In this document: piece after piece, positions 166 through 9,679 of the stretch | Numbering within the stretch: the first letter of the stretch is position 1 | How the letters are laid out: each line of letters starts with the position of its first letter | Assembly (NCBI GenBank): GCA_025774865.1 | Contig: JALGZO010000073.1 | Span: 1 to 14,029 of the forward strand | Source: a bacterium | GTDB taxonomy: Bacteria; ARS69 | Length of the DNA stretch: 14,029 nt | Direction: 5' to 3' | Made by a program: the position numbers and the translations under genes | The notes under the pieces: generated by a model | Told to the model about the DNA's origin: nothing | What the model saw: only the letters and a program-made list of their open reading frames with translations | The model's database searches: none

Positions 166-2603
166 GCCGGAGCAATCTCCTCTGACGAGCCGCCCCTCGG
201 CCTTTTCCCGCGCGCGAGAGCGAGCGAGGCGACGACGAGGGCTGCCAGGGCGACCAGGCTCAAGGCGCCGCCCCGGGCGAACGAGGACGGTTCGTAGCGG
301 AACTCCACTTCGCGATCGCGCGGCTGCACGACGACGCCCCGAAACGCATGGTCGACCCGGTGGATCCGCCGCTCCTCTCCATCGACGAGAGCCCGCCATC
401 CCGGGTACCACGCGTCGGTCAGCACGAGCAGGGCCGGCCTCTCGACCGCGACCGCGACGACCACGCGCTCGTCGCCGTGCATCATGATCTGTGCCCGCCC
501 CAGAGGGGATCGGGCGACACCAGTCGGTCGGATGGGCAGATCCGTAATGGAACCCTCGGCGTAGGCCCAGAGATCCGGGCGAAACGAAGGATCGGCGAGA
601 GCCGCGATCCGGGTCTCCCGGTCCTCGATCACCCGGACCTCGTCCACGAAGAAGGCGCGAGGGAGAGCGTCGGGGTTCTCGTGCAGGGCGACCGGCCCTT
701 CCCGTACGGGCACGAGCCCGGGGAAGGGGCCGCCGCCCTCGGCGAGAATCCAGCGCACATTCAGGAGGTCGATGAGCGGGGATGCGAGCGCCGGGGCGCG
801 ACGCACGCCGCGGAAGTTGCCGCGCTTGACCACGATGTCCGGGTCGAGGGCGGTCATGACTTCCTGGTAGGCGGCGAGGTTCATCGAGTCGAAGCCGAGT
901 GCGTCCTCGATCCCGTACGGCGCGGCGGTCGACGGCGGCAGGATCCCGTCGAACTGACTGGGTCGGGGCTCGTAGCGGAGGATTCTGAACGGTCCCTCCG
1001 CTTCGCGCTTCTGCTGTAAGAAGTCGACGACATCTCCGGGGGTAGGGTCACGGTAGATCGACTCCTCGGGTTGCATCAGGTTGATTCGGCCGGCGAAGCG
1101 CCCGAGATCGACGCCGGTCAGGGCGATGGCCGCCGCGAGGAACGCGGTCCCCCCGATGCGTCCCGTCGCCCGCAGTCCGATCACGGTGAGCGCCACGGCG
1201 GCCGTGGCCGCGGCGAGCCCGGCTGCGGCGATGAGCCGAGCTCGCCCGACGCGCTCCACCACGGACGCCGGCAGCAGGTCGGGGAAGATCCCGATGAGGA
1301 GCGCGAACGCGAGCGCGACGGCGCCGATCGTCAGCGCGAATCGATTCGTCGCGCGCCGCATGCCCGGCCCTTCCGAGCCGGCGAGCCGTTGCGCCCCGAC
1401 GGCCGCGACGATCGCCGCCCCGAAGCCCCAGAGGAACGCGGCGCGATCGGGACGCGAGAATCCGAGCCCGGGCATCCAGGGGGCGAGATTCGTGAGGGGC
1501 GTGCGAAAGCACCACACGAGCCCGAGCGCGGCCAACCCGAGACCGATCCCCGCCGCCTTCCGGTGGTCGCCCGGCGCGAGGATCACGGCGGCCAAGAGAA
1601 GCGGCAGCATCCCGAGATAGATCGACGTGCTGCGCTCGGTCTGGTGGTAGTAGCCGCTTCCCACCCCCAGCAGGTGCGTCGCGCTGTTTCCGTCCACCGG
1701 GTTTCCGAGGAGATCGGGGACGACGAGCTTGCCCAGTCCCCACGGATGGAGCGTCCCCGAGGCCAACATGTCCACGGAGTTGGTCGCGTCCTGCGCGAGG
1801 CCCATGAACTCGAGGGTCGGCACGAGGTGAACGCTCACGAGAAGAACCCCGACCACGCCGGCGCCCGCCCACCCGAGCCACCGTCGGTCGGCGGTCCGCC
1901 GCCGCCGCGCCACACTCTCGACGAGCCCGAACAAGCCCCAGGCGTACACCGTGAACACGAAGATCTGGGCGAAGCCCGCGAGGCCCGACATCGCGAGCGA
2001 TCCCGCCATCCCGGCGAACGAGCGCCCGTCGCCCCGCCGAAACCAGCGCCGCGTCGCGGCCATCGCCCACGGCAACCACGCGCCGGTCGCGACCATCGTG
2101 GGGATGCCCGTACGGGCGGCGTTGTACCCCGACCACCCGAAAACGATCGCCCCGAGTAAGGAAGCGCCGGCCCCGAGCTGGAGCGAGCGCAGCAGGACAT
2201 AGATCCCGGTGACGGCGAGCAGGAGGTGGAACGCGAGATAGGCGGTCATCTGGTCCGCCACCGAGAGCCCGGAGACGGCCAGACCCAGATTGGGGGGGTA
2301 GAAGACCCCGGGCTGGAAGTTCGCGAGGAAGGGGGTCCCGGAGTAGATCCACCGGTTCCAGAGGGGGATCCGGCCCTCCTGGAGGGCGTCCGAGGCGAGC
2401 GACCGCATCACGGCGAACTGGCGGGCGCAGTCGGCGAGCCGCGTGGGACGCGCGAGATCGTCGGGCCCGGCCACCGCTTTCCACGGTTGCCAGAGGTCCA
2501 TGTTGCAGGGGAACACGGCTTGGTCGGAGAAGAGCGCGGGACCGAAGAACGCGCCCACGGCGACAATCAACGCGGTCAGTGCGAGAACGTCTTGCCCCCT
2601 CAT
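162..2603 (-). CDS. YfhO family GT-C membrane protein
   Basis: 813 aa, a usual length for YfhO proteins, which are GT-C-fold multi-pass membrane proteins; the Bacillus member is implicated in glycosylating cell-envelope polymers with lipid-linked sugars. Seen: a first transmembrane segment at about residues 5-25, then an exported loop with NMDLWQPWK holding acidic residues, the family hallmark GRIPLWNRWIYSGTPF (about residues 77-92) and FYPPNLGL, many further hydrophobic segments to about residue 545, a large soluble C-terminal region with the YfhO motif WYPGWRALVDG (near residue 725), and a last transmembrane segment close to the C-terminus. The start is set at 2603 because the hydrophobic segment begins there and the promoter places the transcript start at about 2604; a longer reading to 2738 would begin upstream of that transcript start and adds only a basic, non-conserved stretch. 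The 3' end overlaps the phosphodiesterase lipoprotein gene, suggesting a joint envelope role. Donor and acceptor are unknown. Confidence 0.85.
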   Translation of the reverse strand: MRGQDVLALTALIVAVGAFFGPALFSDQAVFPCNMDLWQPWKAVAGPDDLARPTRLADCARQFAVMRSLASDALQEGRIPLWNRWIYSGTPFLANFQPGVFYPPNLGLAVSGLSVADQMTAYLAFHLLLAVTGIYVLLRSLQLGAGASLLGAIVFGWSGYNAARTGIPTMVATGAWLPWAMAATRRWFRRGDGRSFAGMAGSLAMSGLAGFAQIFVFTVYAWGLFGLVESVARRRRTADRRWLGWAGAGVVGVLLVSVHLVPTLEFMGLAQDATNSVDMLASGTLHPWGLGKLVVPDLLGNPVDGNSATHLLGVGSGYYHQTERSTSIYLGMLPLLLAAVILAPGDHRKAAGIGLGLAALGLVWCFRTPLTNLAPWMPGLGFSRPDRAAFLWGFGAAIVAAVGAQRLAGSEGPGMRRATNRFALTIGAVALAFALLIGIFPDLLPASVVERVGRARLIAAAGLAAATAAVALTVIGLRATGRIGGTAFLAAAIALTGVDLGRFAGRINLMQPEESIYRDPTPGDVVDFLQQKREAEGPFRILRYEPRPSQFDGILPPSTAAPYGIEDALGFDSMNLAAYQEVMTALDPDIVVKRGNFRGVRRAPALASPLIDLLNVRWILAEGGGPFPGLVPVREGPVALHENPDALPRAFFVDEVRVIEDRETRIAALADPSFRPDLWAYAEGSITDLPIRPTGVARSPLGRAQIMMHGDERVVVAVAVERPALLVLTDAWYPGWRALVDGEERRIHRVDHAFRGVVVQPRDREVEFRYEPSSFARGGALSLVALAALVVASLALARGKRPRGGSSEEIAPA

Positions 2604-2639
2604 CCGGGCGAGCGTAGCATGCGCCCCTCGGCCCGACAA
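2604..2639 (-). promoter_or_regulatory. Sigma-70-type promoter of the YfhO gene, apparently leaderless
   Basis: On the minus strand, TTGTCG (2639-2634) and TACGCT (2616-2611) are separated by exactly 17 bp. The -10 hexamer ends seven bases before the ATG at 2603, so the expected transcript start is 2604 or 2603 and the mRNA would have essentially no 5' leader. No Shine-Dalgarno sequence lies between. TANNNT about 7 nt before a start codon is the known signature of leaderless genes in several GC-rich bacteria. Confidence 0.6.
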
Positions 2640-2665
2640 GACGGCCCGAGGTGCTAACCCTTTGA

Positions 2666-2681
2666 GAGTTCGTGAGTTCGT
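2666..2681. repeat. Tandem 8-bp direct repeat between divergent promoters
   Basis: GAGTTCGT occurs twice head to tail, in the 66 bp between the two divergent -35 elements (2639 and 2706). The position would suit a regulator binding site acting on one or both promoters, but two copies of an octamer could be chance. Confidence 0.4.
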
Positions 2682-2705
2682 GGGTCTCTTCGTCCGGCGC
2701 CGAAG

Positions 2706-2734
2706 TTGACGCTTCCATCCGGACTTGATAACGT
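2706..2734 (+). promoter_or_regulatory. Sigma-70-type promoter of the polyprenyl synthase/ApbE operon
   Basis: TTGACG (2706-2711), a 17-bp spacer, then TAACGT (2729-2734). The predicted transcript start near 2741 lies about 65 nt before the chosen ATG at 2806 and excludes a TTG start at 2725, which falls inside the -10 region. It is divergent from the YfhO promoter. Confidence 0.65.
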
Positions 2735-2805
2735 CCACCCGGTTCTCGCGTCGTTATTCCCGCACTCGGCGAGTCACTAGCGACCCGCTCGGAGACCTCT
2801 CTTCG

Positions 2806-3828
2806 ATGCCCGAATCGCTCGCGCACGAGGCGTCGCATCCCGGCGCGAAGATGACCCTGCCGGAAGTCCTAGACCACATCGGTCCCGAGCTCGCCGAGAT
2901 CGAAACTCGGCTCGCCTCGATCGAACGGCCCGACGTGCCGCTGACGGCCGAAATCATGGAGCACGTGCTCGCCGCGCGCGGCAAGCGGGTCCGTCCGCTG
3001 CTCCTCCTGCTCATTTCGAAGCTCGGCGAGAAGCCGGATCGGGAAGGCGTCCTGTGGGCGTCGGCGGTCATCGAGCTGATTCACACCGCGACGCTGCTTC
3101 ACGACGACTGTCTCGACAGCACTTCACTTCGCCGCGGATTCCCCACCGTCAATCACCGGTGGGGACAGCAGGCGGCCATCCTCATGGGGGACTATCTCTT
3201 CACGAAGGGATTCGACCTCCTGAGCGAGCACGGTCTCTACTCGGCGTTGCACGTCCTCACGCAACACACGCACCACATGACCTGCGGCATGAACCGCGAG
3301 TATGCGAGCCGGTACCGGGCCGACCTCACCGAGAGCGAGTACCTCGAGATCATCGGCGAGAAGACCGGCGCTCTCTTCGTCGCGGCGTGCGAGATCGGAG
3401 CGGTGCTGGGTGGTCTCGGCCCGGAGGCGGCCACCTCCATGTCGACGTTCGGTCGCGATCTGGGTATCGCCTTTCAGATCGTCGACGACATCTTCGACTT
3501 CACCGGCAATCCCACGGAGATCGGGAAGCCCACCGGCACGGACTTCCGCCTCGGGTTTGCCACGCTGCCCCTGATCTATGCGCTGGAGCGAGGCGATCGG
3601 AAGGAAGCCGCTTCCGTGGCGGCTTGCTTCTCGCGCGGCGACAACACCGACGCGGAATGGGCGAAGGCGCGGCGTTTCGTGACCGGGAGCGGTGGCGTCG
3701 AGGCGGCCCGGGACCGGGCGCTCGGCTTCGCGTTCGCGGCCCGGGACCGATTGGCCGCGTTCGACGGCTCCGACGATATCGGCCTGCTCCTCGCGACCGT
3801 CGAGTACGTGATCGCCCGAGGGCGCTGA
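2806..3828 (+). CDS. Long-chain trans-polyprenyl diphosphate synthase (IspB/HepT/DmkB type)
   Basis: 340 aa, normal for the family. It condenses isopentenyl diphosphate onto an allylic primer in the cytoplasm to make the quinone side chain. Seen: GKRVRP (59-64), the first Asp-rich motif DDCLD (100-104) followed by LRRG, the GEKTGALF segment (185-191), the second Asp-rich motif DDIFD (227-231), and GKPTGTD (240-246) before the TLPLIYAL helix. All catalytic aspartates are present. The ATG at 2806 has GGAG at 2791-2794 and sits after the predicted transcript start; 2851 is a less likely alternative ATG. The apbE start follows the stop after 1 nt, so it is the first gene of a four-gene operon whose content suggests a menaquinone or demethylmenaquinone side chain. 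Chain length cannot be read from sequence; GcpE-type or short-chain (IspA) function is less likely given the operon. Confidence 0.9.
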   Translation: MPESLAHEASHPGAKMTLPEVLDHIGPELAEIETRLASIERPDVPLTAEIMEHVLAARGKRVRPLLLLLISKLGEKPDREGVLWASAVIELIHTATLLHDDCLDSTSLRRGFPTVNHRWGQQAAILMGDYLFTKGFDLLSEHGLYSALHVLTQHTHHMTCGMNREYASRYRADLTESEYLEIIGEKTGALFVAACEIGAVLGGLGPEAATSMSTFGRDLGIAFQIVDDIFDFTGNPTEIGKPTGTDFRLGFATLPLIYALERGDRKEAASVAACFSRGDNTDAEWAKARRFVTGSGGVEAARDRALGFAFAARDRLAAFDGSDDIGLLLATVEYVIARGR

Positions 3829-3829
3829 C

Positions 3830-4828
3830 TTGAGGCCGCCGTCCGGCGCGCTTTGGAGTCTCACTCTCGTCTGCCTCGCCTGCGAGACCGGCCCCGCCAT
3901 CTACGAGCACACCGGCTTCGCGATGGGGACCGTCGCCCAGCTCAAGGTCGTCGCCTATGACGCCTCCCCGGCGGAGGAGGCGCTCGTCCGAGCGATGGCC
4001 GAGCTCGCCCGCATCGAACGAATCACCACGGTGTACTCCGACTCGAGCGACGTGGCCCGCCTCGCTCGCGACGCGGGCGGTGATCCCCGAGCCCTGCCGG
4101 AGGATCTCGACTGGATCCTCGAGTCGGCCCTGCGAGTGGCGGAACGCTCGGGTGGAGCATTCGATCCGACGGCGGGCCCGCTCGTGCGTGCGTGGGGGTT
4201 CCCCGAGGAGCCCGCGCTACCGGATTCGGTCGACCTGGCGGCCGCCCTCGAGCTCGTTTCCTGGGAGGGCTGCTCGAAGACGGAGGAGGGCTGGCAGCTC
4301 ACCGTCGCCGGGATGGAACTCGACCTCGGAGGTATCGCGAAGGGGTATGCGGTGGACCGCGCCGCCGACGCTCTCGCGGCGGTCACCGGCAACTGCCTCG
4401 TCAACGTCGGCGGAGACCTCGCCGTGCGTGGCTCGCGGCCGGGGCGATCGGGCTGGCACATCGGGATTCAGGATCCGCGGGAACCGTCGCGGCTGTTCCT
4501 CAAGATCCAAGTGTCCGGGAATCGGGCCGTCGCGACGTCGGGGGACTACCAGCGTGCCTTCGACGTCGACGGTATTCGTTACCATCACATCCTCGACCCC
4601 CGGCGCGGCTGGCCGGCGGGTGAGCTTCGCAGCGTCACCGTGGTTGCGCCCACCTGCGAGCTGGCCGACGCGTGGGCGACGGCCGCGTTCGTCCTCGGAC
4701 CGGAGGAGGGGCTCGAGGCGCTGGAGGCCCACCCGGATCTGGAGGGCGTGCTGGTCGAGGAGGACGAGAAGGGCGACTTGGTCCTGCACCGCACCTCGGG
4801 CATGGTCGCGCTCGAGGTGGGGGGGTGA
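3830..4828 (+). CDS. apbE: ApbE, FAD:protein FMN transferase (probable lipoprotein)
   Basis: 332 aa. ApbE hydrolyses FAD and transfers FMN to Thr or Ser of extracytoplasmic redox proteins such as RnfG, NqrC or PplA-type flavoproteins. Seen: GAFDPTAGPLVRAWGF (109-124), the core motif DLGGIAKGYAVD (165-176), LVNVGGDLAVRG (190-201), ATSGDYQRAF (235-244), HHILDPRRG (252-260) and LADAWATA (278-285) with the Asp and Thr expected to bind Mg2+. The family core looks intact. The N-terminus has a short hydrophobic run ending in CLAC with Cys18 as a likely lipidation site; the lipobox is not perfect. The start is TTG at 3830, 1 nt after the synthase stop, chosen because it supplies this signal. The stop overlaps the next start (GTGA). 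No flavin-acceptor protein is encoded nearby, so the substrate must lie elsewhere. Confidence 0.93.
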   Translation: MRPPSGALWSLTLVCLACETGPAIYEHTGFAMGTVAQLKVVAYDASPAEEALVRAMAELARIERITTVYSDSSDVARLARDAGGDPRALPEDLDWILESALRVAERSGGAFDPTAGPLVRAWGFPEEPALPDSVDLAAALELVSWEGCSKTEEGWQLTVAGMELDLGGIAKGYAVDRAADALAAVTGNCLVNVGGDLAVRGSRPGRSGWHIGIQDPREPSRLFLKIQVSGNRAVATSGDYQRAFDVDGIRYHHILDPRRGWPAGELRSVTVVAPTCELADAWATAAFVLGPEEGLEALEAHPDLEGVLVEEDEKGDLVLHRTSGMVALEVGG

Positions 4829-5229
4829 GTGGGCTGTGGTCTGCCCGCGGAATCCTGAACGCCATGACCCCCGCGGACGGAGTGGTGGCCATCGGCGTGC
4901 TCGTGCTTTCGGGAGTCGTCGCGGCCTCGTCGGGGCTCCCGTCGAGCTCGCCGGAGCGCGCCCTGGTCTCGGTCGGACGGGTGGTCGTTCTCACCCTGCC
5001 GCTCGAACGTGACGCGGCGAGAACGGTCTCGGCGCGTCTCGGCCGGGTGAGGCTCGAGGTCGCCGACGGCTCGGTCCGGGTCGTCGAGAGCGGCTGCCCA
5101 CAACAGCTCTGCGTGCGGATGGGCAAGAAGAGTCGGGCCGGCGAGCTGATCGCCTGCGTCCCCAACGCCCTCGTCGTCCGGCTTGAGGGCGCTGCCGATC
5201 CCGACGCCCCCGACGCGGTGTCCCGGTGA
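4825..5229 (+). CDS. Membrane-anchored NusG domain II protein (EetA-like)
   Basis: 134 aa. A GTG start at 4825 overlaps the apbE stop by 4 bp. Seen: one transmembrane segment (about 17-36), then a small beta-rich exported domain with the NusG_II signature: SGCPQQLCVRMG (89-100) and IACVPNALVV (109-118), giving cysteines 91, 96 and 111. The domain resembles the insertion domain of some NusG factors but here it is separate and membrane-tethered, with no NGN or KOW transcription domain, so a role in transcription is unlikely. In Firmicutes this family sits beside ApbE and Gx-transporter genes and is named EetA in flavin-based extracellular electron transfer loci (from memory). Function of the family is not established; the conserved cysteines would suit a redox or metal role outside the cytoplasm. 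Family call is confident; role is inferred from neighbours. Confidence 0.83.
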   Translation: MSGLWSARGILNAMTPADGVVAIGVLVLSGVVAASSGLPSSSPERALVSVGRVVVLTLPLERDAARTVSARLGRVRLEVADGSVRVVESGCPQQLCVRMGKKSRAGELIACVPNALVVRLEGAADPDAPDAVSR

Positions 5230-5729
5230 GCCTCTCGGCCCAGGTCGCCGCCCGGCTCGCGATCTTCGTGGCGGTGGCGACGGTGCTCCAGGTCGCCGAG
5301 AGCATGGTCCCCAAGCCCATGCCCTGGCTCCGGCTGGGGCTCGCGAACGCCGTGACTCTGCTGGTCCTCGTCCGCTCCGGTGTCCTGGCGTCGGCCGCCG
5401 TCACCGTGGTGAGGCTTCTGCTGGGAGGGCTCGTCCTCGGGACGCTTGCGAGCCCGCCGTTCCTCCTGTCGGCCGCCGGGGCGCTCTCGGCGCTCGTGGT
5501 GATGGGGGCCGCCGCCCGGCTGGCGATGCCGCCGCTCTCGTGTCTCGGCGTCAGCGTCCTGGGGGCCGCCACGCACGTCGCGGGGCAGCTGATGGCGTTC
5601 TCGGTCCTCTTCGATCTCGGCTCGGCCGCGCTCGTGCTCGCGCCGCTGCTGGTGGCCACCGCGGTCCCGCTGGGTCTGGTCTCCGGGACCGTCGTGCTGG
5701 CCGTACATCGGCGTCTGCCGGCGTGGTAA
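5226..5729 (+). CDS. Gx transporter family / heptaprenyl diphosphate synthase component I-like membrane protein (EetB-like)
   Basis: 167 aa, GTG start overlapping the previous stop (GTGA). Almost wholly hydrophobic, with about five transmembrane segments. Seen: a PKPMPWLRLGLANAVTLL segment (29-46) close to the family pattern of a Pro-rich turn before GLANxVTLL, then VVRLLLGGLVLGT (61-73), and conserved small-residue helices. The family was once annotated as heptaprenyl diphosphate synthase component I and is now called Gx transporter; it resembles ECF-type substrate-binding membrane subunits in hydropathy. As the fourth gene of a tightly packed operon with a polyprenyl synthase, ApbE and a NusG_II protein it matches the eetB position of extracellular electron transfer loci. 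Substrate or partner is unknown. No clear terminator follows. Confidence 0.82.
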   Translation: MSLSAQVAARLAIFVAVATVLQVAESMVPKPMPWLRLGLANAVTLLVLVRSGVLASAAVTVVRLLLGGLVLGTLASPPFLLSAAGALSALVVMGAAARLAMPPLSCLGVSVLGAATHVAGQLMAFSVLFDLGSAALVLAPLLVATAVPLGLVSGTVVLAVHRRLPAW

Positions 5730-5776
5730 GCTGAGGGTACAACTCCGGGTCGAATCGACCGATCCTGAGGAGGAGA

Positions 5777-5809
5777 GTGGTTCAGCAAAGGAGGCCAGCC
5801 ACCCGTTGA
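5777..5809 (+). CDS. Possible 10-codon upstream ORF coupled to rsfS
   Basis: A GTG at 5777 is preceded by GAGGAGGAG (5768-5776 region) and reads MVQQRRPATR before a TGA at 5807-5809. That stop overlaps the TTG start of rsfS (TTGA). Its AGG-AGG codon pair is also the rsfS ribosome binding site, so a ribosome translating it would occlude and then deliver onto the rsfS start. No protein homology is possible at this length; it may be accidental. Confidence 0.25.
   Translation: MVQQRRPATR
5787..5794 (+). promoter_or_regulatory. Strong ribosome binding site of rsfS
   Basis: AAAGGAGG, a near-perfect anti-SD match, ends 11 nt before a TTG codon. It decides the start at 5806, since no ATG or GTG is in frame nearby. 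Confidence 0.75.
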
Positions 5810-6171
5810 ATCCCGACCAACTCGCCCGCCGCGCCGCCGAGCTCGGGCTCGAGAAGAAAGCCCACGACGTCCTCGTCCTGGATCTCCGCAAGCTCACTTC
5901 CGCCGCCGATCATTTCGTCCTGCTCTCTGCTGATTCCGAGACCCAAGTCAAAGCCGTCGCCGAGCACATCGTCGAGTCGCTGGCGCAGCAAGGGTCGAAG
6001 GCCTGGCACGTCGAGGGGCTCGGAAGCCGGAGGTGGGTGCTCCTGGATTACGTGGACGTGGTGGTGCATGTGTTCTACAGTGATACGCGCGAATTCTACT
6101 CCCTGGAGACTCTCTGGGGTGACGCGCCGGCTACTCGCGTCGTCGACGACGACGCACGCGAGATCGCCTAG
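5806..6171 (+). CDS. rsfS: Ribosome silencing factor RsfS (YbeB/Iojap)
   Basis: 121 aa, typical length. RsfS binds ribosomal protein uL14 and blocks joining of the 30S and 50S subunits when nutrients are scarce. Seen: DVLVLDLRKLTSAADHFVL (21-39), the family strand-helix start; a helix with AEHIVESL; the hallmark WVLLDYVDVVVHVF (77-90); and REFYSLETLWGDAP (95-108). The C-terminal tail is acidic and variable. TTG start with a strong ribosome binding site. In many bacteria it lies next to nadD and a LytR-type gene; here it stands between the Gx-transporter operon and argS, 76 bp after the former, with no convincing -35/-10 pair in the gap. Confidence 0.93.
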   Translation: MNPDQLARRAAELGLEKKAHDVLVLDLRKLTSAADHFVLLSADSETQVKAVAEHIVESLAQQGSKAWHVEGLGSRRWVLLDYVDVVVHVFYSDTREFYSLETLWGDAPATRVVDDDAREIA

Positions 6172-6172
6172 C

Positions 6173-6211
6173 GTGACTTGCAGGAAGCCCGATCAGCTCC
6201 CCGCAAGTCAC
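6173..6211. repeat. Perfect 9-bp inverted repeat upstream of argS (operator-like dyad)
   Basis: GTGACTTGC (6173-6181) and GCAAGTCAC (6203-6211) are perfect reverse complements with a 21-bp spacer; arm centres are 30 bp apart, about three helical turns. The right arm directly abuts a TACATT -10-like hexamer. There is no T tract, so it is not an intrinsic terminator. It could be a two-site operator over the -35 region or an RNA hairpin at the end of the rsfS transcript. Confidence 0.6.
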
Positions 6212-6217
6212 TACATT
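6212..6217 (+). promoter_or_regulatory. Candidate -10 element of argS
   Basis: TACATT fits TANNNT. At 17-bp spacing the -35 position (6189-6194, CCGATC) is poor, so a promoter here would need an activator or be weak. The predicted start at 6224-6225 would make the mRNA begin exactly with the 18-bp stem described next. Confidence 0.3.
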
Positions 6218-6224
6218 GAAAGTC

Positions 6225-6301
6225 GGAGGCTGTGAGAGAGCCTGTCTCCGTCGTCCGTCGGGCACTCGCCCGCCGGGCGAAAGGGCTCTTTCACAGCCTC
6301 C
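6225..6301 (+). repeat. Long inverted repeat / stem-loop in the argS leader
   Basis: The arms GGAGGCTGTGAGAGAGCC (6225-6242) and GGCTCTTTCACAGCCTCC (6284-6301) pair over 18 bp; the one DNA mismatch becomes a G-U pair in RNA. The 41-nt loop contains a second hairpin, CGGGC-ACTC-GCCCG (6259-6272). The element ends 37 nt before the argS ATG. A conserved pairing with G-U tolerance suits an RNA leader; the long near-perfect terminal arms also suit a MITE-like remnant, though no target-site duplication is visible. Confidence 0.65.
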
Positions 6302-6338: not shown

Positions 6339-8159
6339 ATGCGCCAGCTTCTGCTCGACGAAGTCCGTCGGTCGGTCAAGACCGCCTTTCCCGAGGTCGG
6401 CGACGATCTCATCGAGCGGCTCACGCTCGATCCGCCGCGTGATCCGAGCCACGGCGATTTCTCATCCAACGTGGCGTTTCTCCTGAAGGACGTGCTGCGC
6501 GCCAACCCCCGTCAGATCGCCGAGACCCTCGTCGAGGGCCTGGGGCGAGAAACATCGGTGGGCGACGTCGAGGTCGCGGGGGCCGGGTTCATCAACTTTC
6601 GGATCCGGCCCGAAGGGATCTGCTCGTTCCTCGAGCAGCTGGCGGACGCCCGGGCTCGTCGCGAGATGCTCCTCGACGAGGCGCTGGCGAACCGCCTGGG
6701 CCTCACGCAGATCGAGTTCGTGAGCGCGAACCCGACCGGCCCGATGAACGTGGTGTCGGCCCGGGCGGCCGCCTTCGGCGATTCCCTGGTTCGATTGCTA
6801 CGGGCGGTCGGCGCCGACGCGCGCTCCGAGTTCTACGTGAACGACGTGGGGAATCAGGCGCGGATCTTCGGTCGGTCCCTCCGGGCCCGGTTTCTCCAGG
6901 CCGCCGGGCGCGACGTCGAGCTCGAGGACGAAGTGTACCGGGGCGACGACATCGTCAATCTCGCCACGCAGCTCGAGCGCGCGGTGGCCGCGCGGGCAGA
7001 GACGTCGGCGGACCCTGCGAGCGTCACGTCCGATCTCGAAGCGCAGATGCGCGCCGGTCGCACGATCCAGGCGATCGCGGAGGAGTGGGGGGAGCCGGAC
7101 GATGACGCTCCGGCGCCCGCCGAGGTCGTCGACGCCGTCGCGGCCGAGCTAGACTTCGCGGCGCTCGGGATCGCTTCCATGGTGGCGAGTGCCCGCGAGT
7201 CTCTCGCGCGGTTCGGCGTCGAGTTCGACGAGTGGTTTCGAGAGTCGTCGCTGCACCGAGAGGACGACAGCGGCGTCGTGCCGATCGAGGAAGCGGAGAA
7301 GCTCCTCAACGAAGGCGGACACGTGCGACGCCACGAGGGCGCGTACTGGTTCCGGTCGACGGAGTTCGGCGACGACAAGGATCGAGTCATCCGGCGGGCG
7401 GACGGCGATCCGACATACTTGCTGGGTGACATCGCGTACCACCTCGACAAGGCGCGTCGGGGCTTTCGCAAGGTCGCCGACATCTGGGGCCCCGATCACC
7501 ATGGCTACATCAAGCGTCTCCACGCCGCGACAGTGGCGCTCGGTCAGCCCGAGGACTGGCTCTCGATCCTGATCGTCCAGCAGGTGAACCTCCTTCGAGA
7601 CGGTGAGCCCGTGAAGATGTCGAAGCGCGAGGGCGAGATCGTCACGTTGGATGAGCTGCTCGCGGAGGTCGGGAAGGACGTTTCACGCTTTTTCTTCCTG
7701 ATGCGTCGGGCCTCCGCGCACCTCGACTTCGATCTCGAGCTCGCGAAGCGAGAGACGATGGACAATCCGGTCTTCTACGTGCAATACGCGCACGCACGCT
7801 CCCGGAGCATCTTCCGGCAACCGATGGCGCAGGAGCTCGCGCGGGCCGGCGGGTCCCCGGAGCTGTCCCGGCTCGACGCGCCGGAGGAGATCGCGATGAT
7901 GCGCATCCTCCTGCGTTACCCCGAGGTCGTGCAGGAATCGGCGCGGGCGCTCGAGCCGCATCGGCTCGTCGGCTACCTCAGGGAGGTCGCCGGTTCGTAT
8001 CACCGCTTTTACACGCGCGGGAAGCAGGAACCCGCGTTCCGGGTCCTCGGCTCCGACGAGGGTCTTTCGCGCGCCCGGCTCTTTCTCGTGGGCGTTCTGG
8101 CCGACGTGCTCCGCGAGGGCTTGGACCTCCTCGGGATCGAGGCCGTCGAATCCATGTGA
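6339..8159 (+). CDS. argS: Arginyl-tRNA synthetase (class I)
   Basis: 606 aa, within the usual range. It charges tRNA-Arg with arginine in the cytoplasm. Seen in order: the N-terminal tRNA D-loop-binding domain (HGDFSSNVAF at 38-47, GAGFINFRI at 81-89); the catalytic start EFVSANPTGP (126-135); FYVNDVGNQ (165-173); EGAYWFRST and DPTYLLGDIAYHLDK (357-371); GPDHHGYIKRL (384-394); KMSKREG (426-432) for the KMSKS loop; DNPVFYVQYAHARSRSI (475-491) and an anticodon-binding helical domain ending at residue 606. Odd: the HIGH signature, normally HVGH or similar, reads NVVS (137-140), so both histidines are missing although everything around it is conserved. The ATG at 6339 is chosen by homology; a TTG at 6216 would code through the leader hairpin. 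No Shine-Dalgarno precedes the ATG. A 167-bp structured gap separates it from rsfS. Confidence 0.92.
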   Translation: MRQLLLDEVRRSVKTAFPEVGDDLIERLTLDPPRDPSHGDFSSNVAFLLKDVLRANPRQIAETLVEGLGRETSVGDVEVAGAGFINFRIRPEGICSFLEQLADARARREMLLDEALANRLGLTQIEFVSANPTGPMNVVSARAAAFGDSLVRLLRAVGADARSEFYVNDVGNQARIFGRSLRARFLQAAGRDVELEDEVYRGDDIVNLATQLERAVAARAETSADPASVTSDLEAQMRAGRTIQAIAEEWGEPDDDAPAPAEVVDAVAAELDFAALGIASMVASARESLARFGVEFDEWFRESSLHREDDSGVVPIEEAEKLLNEGGHVRRHEGAYWFRSTEFGDDKDRVIRRADGDPTYLLGDIAYHLDKARRGFRKVADIWGPDHHGYIKRLHAATVALGQPEDWLSILIVQQVNLLRDGEPVKMSKREGEIVTLDELLAEVGKDVSRFFFLMRRASAHLDFDLELAKRETMDNPVFYVQYAHARSRSIFRQPMAQELARAGGSPELSRLDAPEEIAMMRILLRYPEVVQESARALEPHRLVGYLREVAGSYHRFYTRGKQEPAFRVLGSDEGLSRARLFLVGVLADVLREGLDLLGIEAVESM

Positions 8160-8211: not shown

Positions 8212-9132
8212 ATGAGCATCCTGGTCGTGGGTTCCATCGGATTCGACACCGTCACGACTCCCCACGGCAAGGTCGAGGACGCGCTCGGCGGATCGGCCAC
8301 GTTCTTCTCGGCGGCGGCGAGTTTCTTCGCGCCGGTGAAGATCGTCGCGGTGGTCGGAGAGGACTTCGCTCCGTCGACGCTGGACTTTCTTCGTCGCGCG
8401 GGCGCCGACACCGAGGGCGTGTCCGTCGATAAAGGGCAGACGTTCCGGTGGACGGGCTCCTACGGCGCCGAAATGGGCGACGCCACCACGCACGCCACGC
8501 TCCTGAACGTGTTCCAGGAGTTTCGGCCCGAGATCCCCCACGCCTACCGCGGCGAACCGTTCGTCTTCCTCGCGAACATCGATCCCGAGCTGCAGCTGCG
8601 CGTGCTCGACCAGGTGGAGAAGCCCGAGCTTGTCGTCTGCGACACCATGGACTTCTGGATCAGCGGCAAGCGCGACGCTCTCGTCGAGCTCCTGAAGCAC
8701 GTGGACGTGCTCGTCATCAACGAGACGGAGGCGAAGACGTTGGCCGGCGAGTCCAACCCGATCCGCGCGGCGAAGGCCATCCTGCCGATGGGACCGTCGC
8801 GGGTGGTCGTGAAGCTCGGCGAATACGGAGTGATGCTGATCGGCGAGGACAAGATCTACCGCCTGCCCGCGTTTCCGGTGGAGGAAGTCTGCGACCCGAC
8901 GGGCGCGGGCGACTCCTTCGCCGGCGGGTTCGTCGGGAAGCTCGCCCAGACGCGGGATCTCTCGTTCGAGGGCATGCACCGTGCGCTCCTGGCCGGAGCG
9001 GTTTGCGCCTCTTTCACCGTCGAGTCCTTTTCGATGGACCGCCTCAAGGGCATCGATCGGAACGCGATCGACGAGCGATGCCGCGACCTCGAGCACATCG
9101 CCGGCTGGACCTGGTCCGCGCTCGCGGTTTGA
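8212..9132 (+). CDS. PfkB-family carbohydrate/nucleoside kinase, substrate unknown
   Basis: 306 aa, ribokinase-like fold. Seen: N-terminal strand ILVVGSIGFD (3-12), the substrate-binding glycines LGGSATFFSAA (25-35), VVGEDF (47-52), VLVINETEAKTL (166-177), VVVKLGEYG (198-206), and PfkB signature 2 DPTGAGDSFAGGF (228-240) with Asp234 as the catalytic base. All core motifs are intact. Members with a GGSATYF-type N-terminus form a widespread but uncharacterised group often labelled sugar or adenosine kinase; the substrate cannot be assigned here. ATG at 8212 with AAAGGAGA at 8196-8203. It lies 52 nt after argS; a GC-rich imperfect hairpin (8169-8191) lies in the gap without a T tract, so read-through from argS is plausible. 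Confidence 0.85.
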   Translation: MSILVVGSIGFDTVTTPHGKVEDALGGSATFFSAAASFFAPVKIVAVVGEDFAPSTLDFLRRAGADTEGVSVDKGQTFRWTGSYGAEMGDATTHATLLNVFQEFRPEIPHAYRGEPFVFLANIDPELQLRVLDQVEKPELVVCDTMDFWISGKRDALVELLKHVDVLVINETEAKTLAGESNPIRAAKAILPMGPSRVVVKLGEYGVMLIGEDKIYRLPAFPVEEVCDPTGAGDSFAGGFVGKLAQTRDLSFEGMHRALLAGAVCASFTVESFSMDRLKGIDRNAIDERCRDLEHIAGWTWSALAV

Positions 9133-9158
9133 GGCGCCCCCTCGGGATTTGTTAAGTT
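9129..9158 (+). promoter_or_regulatory. Sigma-70-type promoter of the 160-aa protein gene
   Basis: TTGAGG (9129-9134), which overlaps the kinase stop codon, an 18-bp spacer and TAAGTT (9153-9158). The transcript start would be near 9165, about 32 nt before the ATG at 9197. Confidence 0.5.
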
Positions 9159-9196
9159 CCGCTCGACCTCGACCGGGTGACGGTGGGGGAGGGGGC

Positions 9197-9679
9197 ATGT
9201 TCGCGATGGAGAATCCTGCCCACTACTCGGCGGCGGAGCCGGAGGCGCTCGGGCGCATCTCGGTCGCCGGTGTCACGACCCACCAGGGATCGGGCGCGAT
9301 CGAGGTGGAGGTTCGGCTCACCTCGGGCTCGCTCGAGGCCCAGGGACGAGCCTTCGGGGCGAACACGCGATTCGACACTCGCCGGGTCGTCGGGGAGGCG
9401 ACCCTCGACGCGATCTCGAAACTGGTGGCCGGAGATCCCGGGCTGTCGCTCGGCGAGATGGAGGAGAAGAACCTCGGGTCGACCAGGGTCCTCCTCGTCT
9501 GCGTGAATCGCGTGCAGGAGCGGACAGAGAGCCATTTCATGGGGTGTAGTGAAATTGGTTACGATCCGACACTGGCCGCAATTCACGCCGTATTGGATGC
9601 AGTCAATCGATTCGTCGGTACCCTGGGTCCGCGAGAGCCGCTAGAGTACCGGATCGGTCCGGCACCGGTAGAAGGATGA
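9197..9679 (+). CDS. Conserved-looking protein of unknown function with a LeuA-regulatory-domain-like repeat
   Basis: 160 aa; not recognised as a named family. No signal peptide or membrane segment, so probably cytoplasmic. After a 15-residue disordered start there is a beta segment (ISVAGVTTHQGSGAIEVEVR, 21-40), then GRAFGANTRFDTRRVVGEATLDAISKL split over 50-76, a second beta strand (STRVLLVCVNR, 95-105), and a closing segment MGCSEIGYDPTLAAIHAVLD (115-134) with AVNRFVG. The two strand-then-helix units, each with a helix such as EATLDAI or AVLDAVNRF, recall the dimeric regulatory domain of 2-isopropylmalate synthase, where helices of the type DALYKALD and AYLNALNRL occur; this is a pattern impression, not proof. 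ATG at 9197 follows a G-rich purine stretch; ATG at 9206 is an alternative start. It probably shares a transcript with the small ORF and terminator downstream. Confidence 0.7.
   Translation: MFAMENPAHYSAAEPEALGRISVAGVTTHQGSGAIEVEVRLTSGSLEAQGRAFGANTRFDTRRVVGEATLDAISKLVAGDPGLSLGEMEEKNLGSTRVLLVCVNRVQERTESHFMGCSEIGYDPTLAAIHAVLDAVNRFVGTLGPREPLEYRIGPAPVEG

Follow-up and report, generated by a model that had tools for sequence, protein, structure and literature searches.

Four-gene operon predicted to provide exported FAD and protein flavinylation for Nqr and Rnf subunits encoded elsewhere in the genome

How FAD is delivered to enzymes located beyond the cytoplasm is little understood, and the demonstrated case of an ECF exporter is that of Listeria. 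In the window, i.e. the whole stretch of 14,029 nucleotides considered here, genes of a polyprenyl diphosphate synthase, ApbE, a NusG_II protein and a PF07456 (Gx) protein follow one another (Table 1), which raises the question of what system such a set serves. An earlier note, made from the sequence alone, had presented it as a partial locus of extracellular electron transfer (EET) and had named, as an alternative, a core module with another partner such as Rnf or Nqr. In our opinion, the locus is most probably an operon for FAD export and protein flavinylation, serving Nqr and Rnf complexes encoded elsewhere in the genome. Modules of this kind are already known. The corresponding assembly (G000) is a draft, 92.65% complete with 8.3% contamination.

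Table 1. Features of the operon and its co-directional neighbour in the window
Feature	Position	Strand	Basis
Long-chain trans-polyprenyl diphosphate synthase ("DmkB" of the earlier note)	2806..3828	+	PF00348, E 3e-65
ApbE, FAD:protein FMN transferase, predicted lipoprotein	3830..4828	+	PF02424, E 1e-80
NusG_II (DUF1312, EetA-like)	4864..5229 (start at 4825 also possible)	+	PF07009, E 5e-20
Codons of the three conserved cysteines of NusG_II	5095..5157 (C78 5095-5097, C83 5110-5112, C98 5155-5157)	+	motif CPQQLC...CVPN
Hpre_diP_synt_I / Gx (EetB-like), ECF S-component-like, six transmembrane helices	5226..5729	+	PF07456, E 2e-29
RsfS, co-directional neighbour outside the module	5806..6171	+	PF02410; synteny kept in the family

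All four family assignments of the earlier note were reproduced by Pfam, which placed the reading frames 4825-5229 and 5226-5729 in the NusG_II (PF07009) and Gx (PF07456) families, respectively. The genes are arranged head to tail on the plus strand and tightly packed, and the start of the PF07456 gene overlaps the stop codon of nusG_II via GTGA at 5226. The earlier observation is sound except for the promoter and a single start codon. The reported overlap of apbE with nusG_II depends on which start, 4825 or 4864, is chosen for the latter. ATG at 4864 is more likely than GTG at 4825, since homologues begin with (M)T..D at this place. The "one good promoter" of the same note was not confirmed: a consensus scan of positions 2550-6250 gave no sigma-70-like match (0.2 expected by chance).

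The order of the genes is not a matter of chance, since it is kept in other genomes of the same family. It is the same as in the window in G001 and G002, the synthase and apbE genes stand side by side on a partial contig of G004, and the run in G003 consists of synthase, nusG_II and gx genes, without apbE. The sole apbE copy of G003 lies outside the operon, beside genes of a DUF3570 protein and a thioredoxin-like protein (L030, L051). In one scan of a named genome collection, 80 PF07456 loci were obtained. Most belong to Nitrospirota, Nitrospinota, Desulfuromonadales or one of several candidate phyla, and two carry the label Clostridia; the nearest named relatives were labelled "Gemmatimonadetes bacterium" and "bacterium". 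In 65 of the 80 loci, nusG_II immediately precedes the PF07456 gene. Comparison of operon order across phyla, as suggested earlier, revealed the run apbE-nusG_II-eetB in 51/80 loci from many phyla. Malonomonas rubra (L073) is a cultured carrier of the cassette; Mariprofundus erugo (L125) has nusG_II-gx with apbE unlinked. Some Nitrospinota PF07456 genes have no adjoining nusG_II or apbE (L107, L108, L113, L114, L118, L119, L137, L139, L141, L144), and both partners lie on other contigs than the PF07456 gene in G009. Among 60 diverse genomes, ApbE was found in 16/16 PF07456-positive vs 25/44 negative genomes, NusG_II in 16/16 vs 3/44 and NqrB/RnfD in 14/16 vs 16/44 (all counts uncorrected for phylogeny). 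When ApbE-positive genomes are considered, the association of NqrB/RnfD with PF07456 is only suggestive (Fisher p 0.08). Nitrospirota, Desulfuromonadales and further lineages, most of them Gram-negative, contain the same cassette, which is accompanied here by Nqr and Rnf; this suggests a general way of supplying FAD to ion-pumping redox complexes.

The PF07456 protein, encoded by a single gene in this genome, scores 103 bits against a cut-off of 30, and its AlphaFold model (pLDDT 94.2) contains six helices. The best structural matches of the model are TmRibU (5kbw, Z 15.0) and the S-component 3p5n (Z 14.5), named as a riboflavin uptake protein. Using VIA-align, it was found that the top four matches are riboflavin S-components and the best 20 are all ECF S-components; Foldseek gave weaker results (E 0.03-0.1). 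Listeria EetB binds FAD and resembles substrate-binding subunits of ECF transporters; together with FmnA and EcfA/A' it is needed for flavinylation of PplA when FAD is not added, and FAD supplied from outside partly compensates for the loss of EetB (PMC9973259). It has been described as an ECF S-subunit exporting FAD to ApbE, and an FAD exporter seems a better reading of EetB than an electron carrier (PMC9973259). According to the same work, PF07456 genes adjoin eetA in 3,328 genomes and apbE in 2,169, and they are found most often next to Rnf and EET systems (PMC9973259). By analogy, the protein of the window is predicted to be the FAD-binding and FAD-exporting S subunit of an ECF-type exporter, which would move cytosolic FAD across the inner membrane and present it at the outer surface. 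The locus resembles the L. monocytogenes system (EetB-FmnA-EcfA/A' and FmnB; PMC9973259) in the clustering of a PF07456 ECF-S-like subunit, ApbE and EetA and in the predicted supply of FAD for extracytosolic flavinylation. It differs in that the acceptors are unlinked Nqr and Rnf subunits instead of PplA, no EET acceptor being found in the draft, and in that the ECF-T gene is also unlinked.

The only ECF-T gene (PF02361) of the genome is on contig C184, away from the operon, and in the family of the window ecfT stands beside truA (a neighbour assigned by reading). No ecfA was found beside ecfT in this family, and no ECF S-components of the PF12822 type were found in five family genomes. The exporter would probably use the ECF-T protein encoded next to truA. 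Such a set is contiguous in G056, where genes of NusG_II, Gx, EcfA, EcfA' and EcfT form one run. PF02361 was not detected in three PF07456-positive genomes that are 99-100% complete (G021, G026 and G034; loci L028, L026 and L034), and therefore the dependence of PF07456 proteins on ECF-T may not be universal. Co-variation of ECF-T with PF07456 in the 60 diverse genomes was not significant (p 0.15).

The sole ApbE match in the draft genome is that of the window, and the N-terminal region of this protein reads LVCLAC, a lipobox-like stretch expected of an exported and lipid-anchored enzyme. The earlier note had advised looking for rnfG, nqrC and other FMN-binding acceptors. The genome has only three FMN_bind proteins, one NqrC and two RnfG, a result that supports well the alternative of a core module with an Rnf or Nqr partner. 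Neither of the outcomes that the note had named as refuting, a genome devoid of FMN-binding acceptors or a failure of the family placements, occurred. NqrC is encoded on C704 inside an nqrB-C-D-E-F run, and the RnfG genes on C677 and C448 are each accompanied by rnfE and rnfA; the third NqrB/RnfD match of the genome is RnfD on C620. Sites of the (S/T)GA(S/T) type, characteristic of ApbE substrates, are present in NqrB (DAWSGAT), NqrC (DGISGAT) and both RnfG proteins (DAITGAT, DGITGAT). The corresponding stretch in RnfD of C620 is DAVSVAT, and RnfD of C677 has no flavinylation motif. In the proposed scheme, the lipoprotein ApbE would take exported FAD and attach FMN covalently at (S/T)GAT-type sites of NqrB, NqrC, RnfG and RnfD. 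The acceptors are not linked to the operon, and its pairing with Nqr and Rnf is drawn from the content of the genome. In same-family genomes FMN_bind proteins also occur mostly where NqrB/RnfD matches lie; the complete relative G003 has a strong NqrC match, one marginal FMN_bind match on C14 and a single NqrB/RnfD match.

Flavinylation of Rnf and Nqr by ApbE occurs in Vibrio, Klebsiella and Azotobacter (reviewed in PMC12174285). The genome under study shares with them the acceptor subunits, the (S/T)GAT sites and an NqrM-like protein; unlike in those bacteria, ApbE is encoded outside the nqr and rnf operons, together with a predicted ECF-S-like FAD exporter and NusG_II. NqrM-like proteins with the pattern GSCGG...CSVCGR are encoded on C704 of G000 (L155:2-301) and on C89 of G004 (L156, near 7161-7259), both matches being barely over the Pfam cut-off; the gene of G004 is downstream of nqrF. 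The divergent Rnf set on C677 (L036) adjoins genes of an NrfD-like membrane protein, a 4Fe-4S protein and an IorA-like TPP enzyme. DUF2271 was considered as an additional ApbE substrate and discarded, as G000 contains merely a sub-threshold partial match.

NusG_II, also a single-copy protein in this genome and the least understood of the four, consists of one N-terminal transmembrane helix and a beta domain (AlphaFold pLDDT 92.5), which is probably extracytosolic. Its model matches 4esn (Z 15.4), NusG domain II (1m1h, Z 14.7), Lin0431 (3ld7, Z 14.5) and EF3258 (4obi, Z 13.8); its likeness to an FMN-binding domain and to NqrC (Z 2.6-2.7) is too weak to be used. The protein of the window fits the three-cysteine motif CPxKxC...CxPN (C78, C83 and C98), and among 78 homologues these residues are conserved in 76, 78 and 78 sequences, respectively. 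Two of the DUF1312 proteins having the same beta fold are different in this respect: Lin0431 is missing the first two cysteines and EF3258 the second. EF3258, judging by its number, presumably belongs to the EET region of E. faecalis.

Retention of the cysteines goes along with the position of the gene. Across all the copies collected, the three residues are kept in 81 of the 83 that adjoin gx or apbE, and the remaining two keep two. Fourteen copies have neither gene as a neighbour: six of these have the complete triad and eight are missing at least one cysteine. The six comprise the G014 transcription factor NusG and five copies whose genome or locus contains a PF07456 gene at a greater distance. 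Within Bacilli, the triad is present in 8/8 gx-adjacent copies vs 0/7 others, several of the latter being close relatives, so that there are few independent losses. In addition to EF3258, the single NusG_II copy of G026 is exceptional, having lost two cysteines. Domain II of the G014 transcription factor (L147:2915-3652) shows the same triad pattern, CECEKKKC...KCPEN, and Aquifex NusG keeps two of the three residues.

NusG_II is linked with flavinylation and not with the exporter alone, because in G058, a genome where no PF07456 gene was found, the gene stands between an rnf operon and apbE. This run (L145:4902-12094) comprises, on one strand, rnfC-D-G-E-A-B, an RseC-like gene, the gene of a Tat-signal-like NusG_II protein with the triad, and apbE. 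We infer that NusG_II is a membrane-anchored, outward-facing partner, which probably aids the hand-off of FAD or flavinylation, and its cysteines may take part in the former. A stronger version, in which NusG_II/EetA is obligate in extracytosolic flavin delivery, its triad binds a metal or cofactor or acts as a redox switch gating the passage of FAD from EetB to ApbE, and paralogues outside the module lose the cysteines, is put forward tentatively and seems on balance unlikely. If this is correct, the triad would distinguish functional EetA, and a role would be assigned to this protein, the deletion of which has no phenotype in Listeria EET (PMC9973259); deletion of eetA/B in L. plantarum impairs EET (PMC9888254). 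No description of the triad in DUF1312/PF07009/NusG_II was found in the literature searched, which covered few of the subscription journals. The three-cysteine pattern is, in any case, a concrete and testable handle on EetA.

Having one transmembrane helix and three conserved cysteines, and adjoining a complete rnf operon in G058, NusG_II might also be regarded as a maturation factor for iron-sulfur centres of Nqr/Rnf that replaces NqrM. This is very improbable. For Nqr the idea fails, because clear NqrM-like proteins are encoded in G000 and also in G004, there on the downstream side of nqrF; moreover, NusG_II is also present in G056 and G009, both without NqrB/RnfD, and NqrM was found in just 3/60 genomes.

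A small residue at position -5 of the first Asp-rich motif is typical of long-chain polyprenyl synthases. The synthase of the window has alanine there (HTATLLHDD). It is probably the only, general long-chain enzyme of the genome and not a dedicated DmkB, since the sole other polyprenyl synthase, on contig C461, carries the short-chain motif HTYSLIHDD. The product of this first gene of the operon would make the isoprenoid tail of the membrane quinone used by Nqr as its substrate. The same result bears on the EET headline, i.e. a partial Gram-positive-style locus of DmkB, FmnB, EetA and EetB with an Ndh2 or PplA acceptor elsewhere. The gene families are indeed those of the Listeria and Enterococcus EET locus (PMC7074142), and the operon shares DmkB-, FmnB-, EetA- and EetB-type genes with the Firmicutes (FLEET) locus. 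Unlike in FLEET, this synthase is the sole long-chain one detected, and no PplA-like acceptor was detected in the 92.65% complete draft genome; neither Ndh2 nor DmkA adjoins the operon in the window. All three FMN_bind proteins of the draft being Nqr or Rnf subunits, and those of same-family genomes mostly lying at NqrB/RnfD matches, an EET locus with a distant acceptor was rejected as extremely improbable. That the PF07456 protein is a component of prenyl diphosphate synthase, or a prenyl carrier working with the adjacent enzyme, is suggested by its Pfam name and by its proximity to a long-chain synthase gene in the family of the window, L075 and L079, but can scarcely be credited in view of the six-helix ECF-S fold nearest to RibU, the FAD binding of the Listeria homologue (PMC9973259) and the 80 loci, most of which have ApbE and NusG_II beside this gene and few a synthase nearby.

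On the 3' side of the operon there are rsfS, argS, a PfkB-type kinase gene, an HD-GYP protein gene, purM (assigned by reading, without a profile match) and a sigma-54 activator gene; the reading frame 8981-9679, between the kinase and HD-GYP genes, gave no Pfam or NCBIfam match. On the other side, only 67 bases separate the operon from the divergent gene 162-2738, which encodes a large membrane protein weakly similar to YfhO (below the Pfam cut-off) and stands beside the operon in four genomes of the family, including that of the window.
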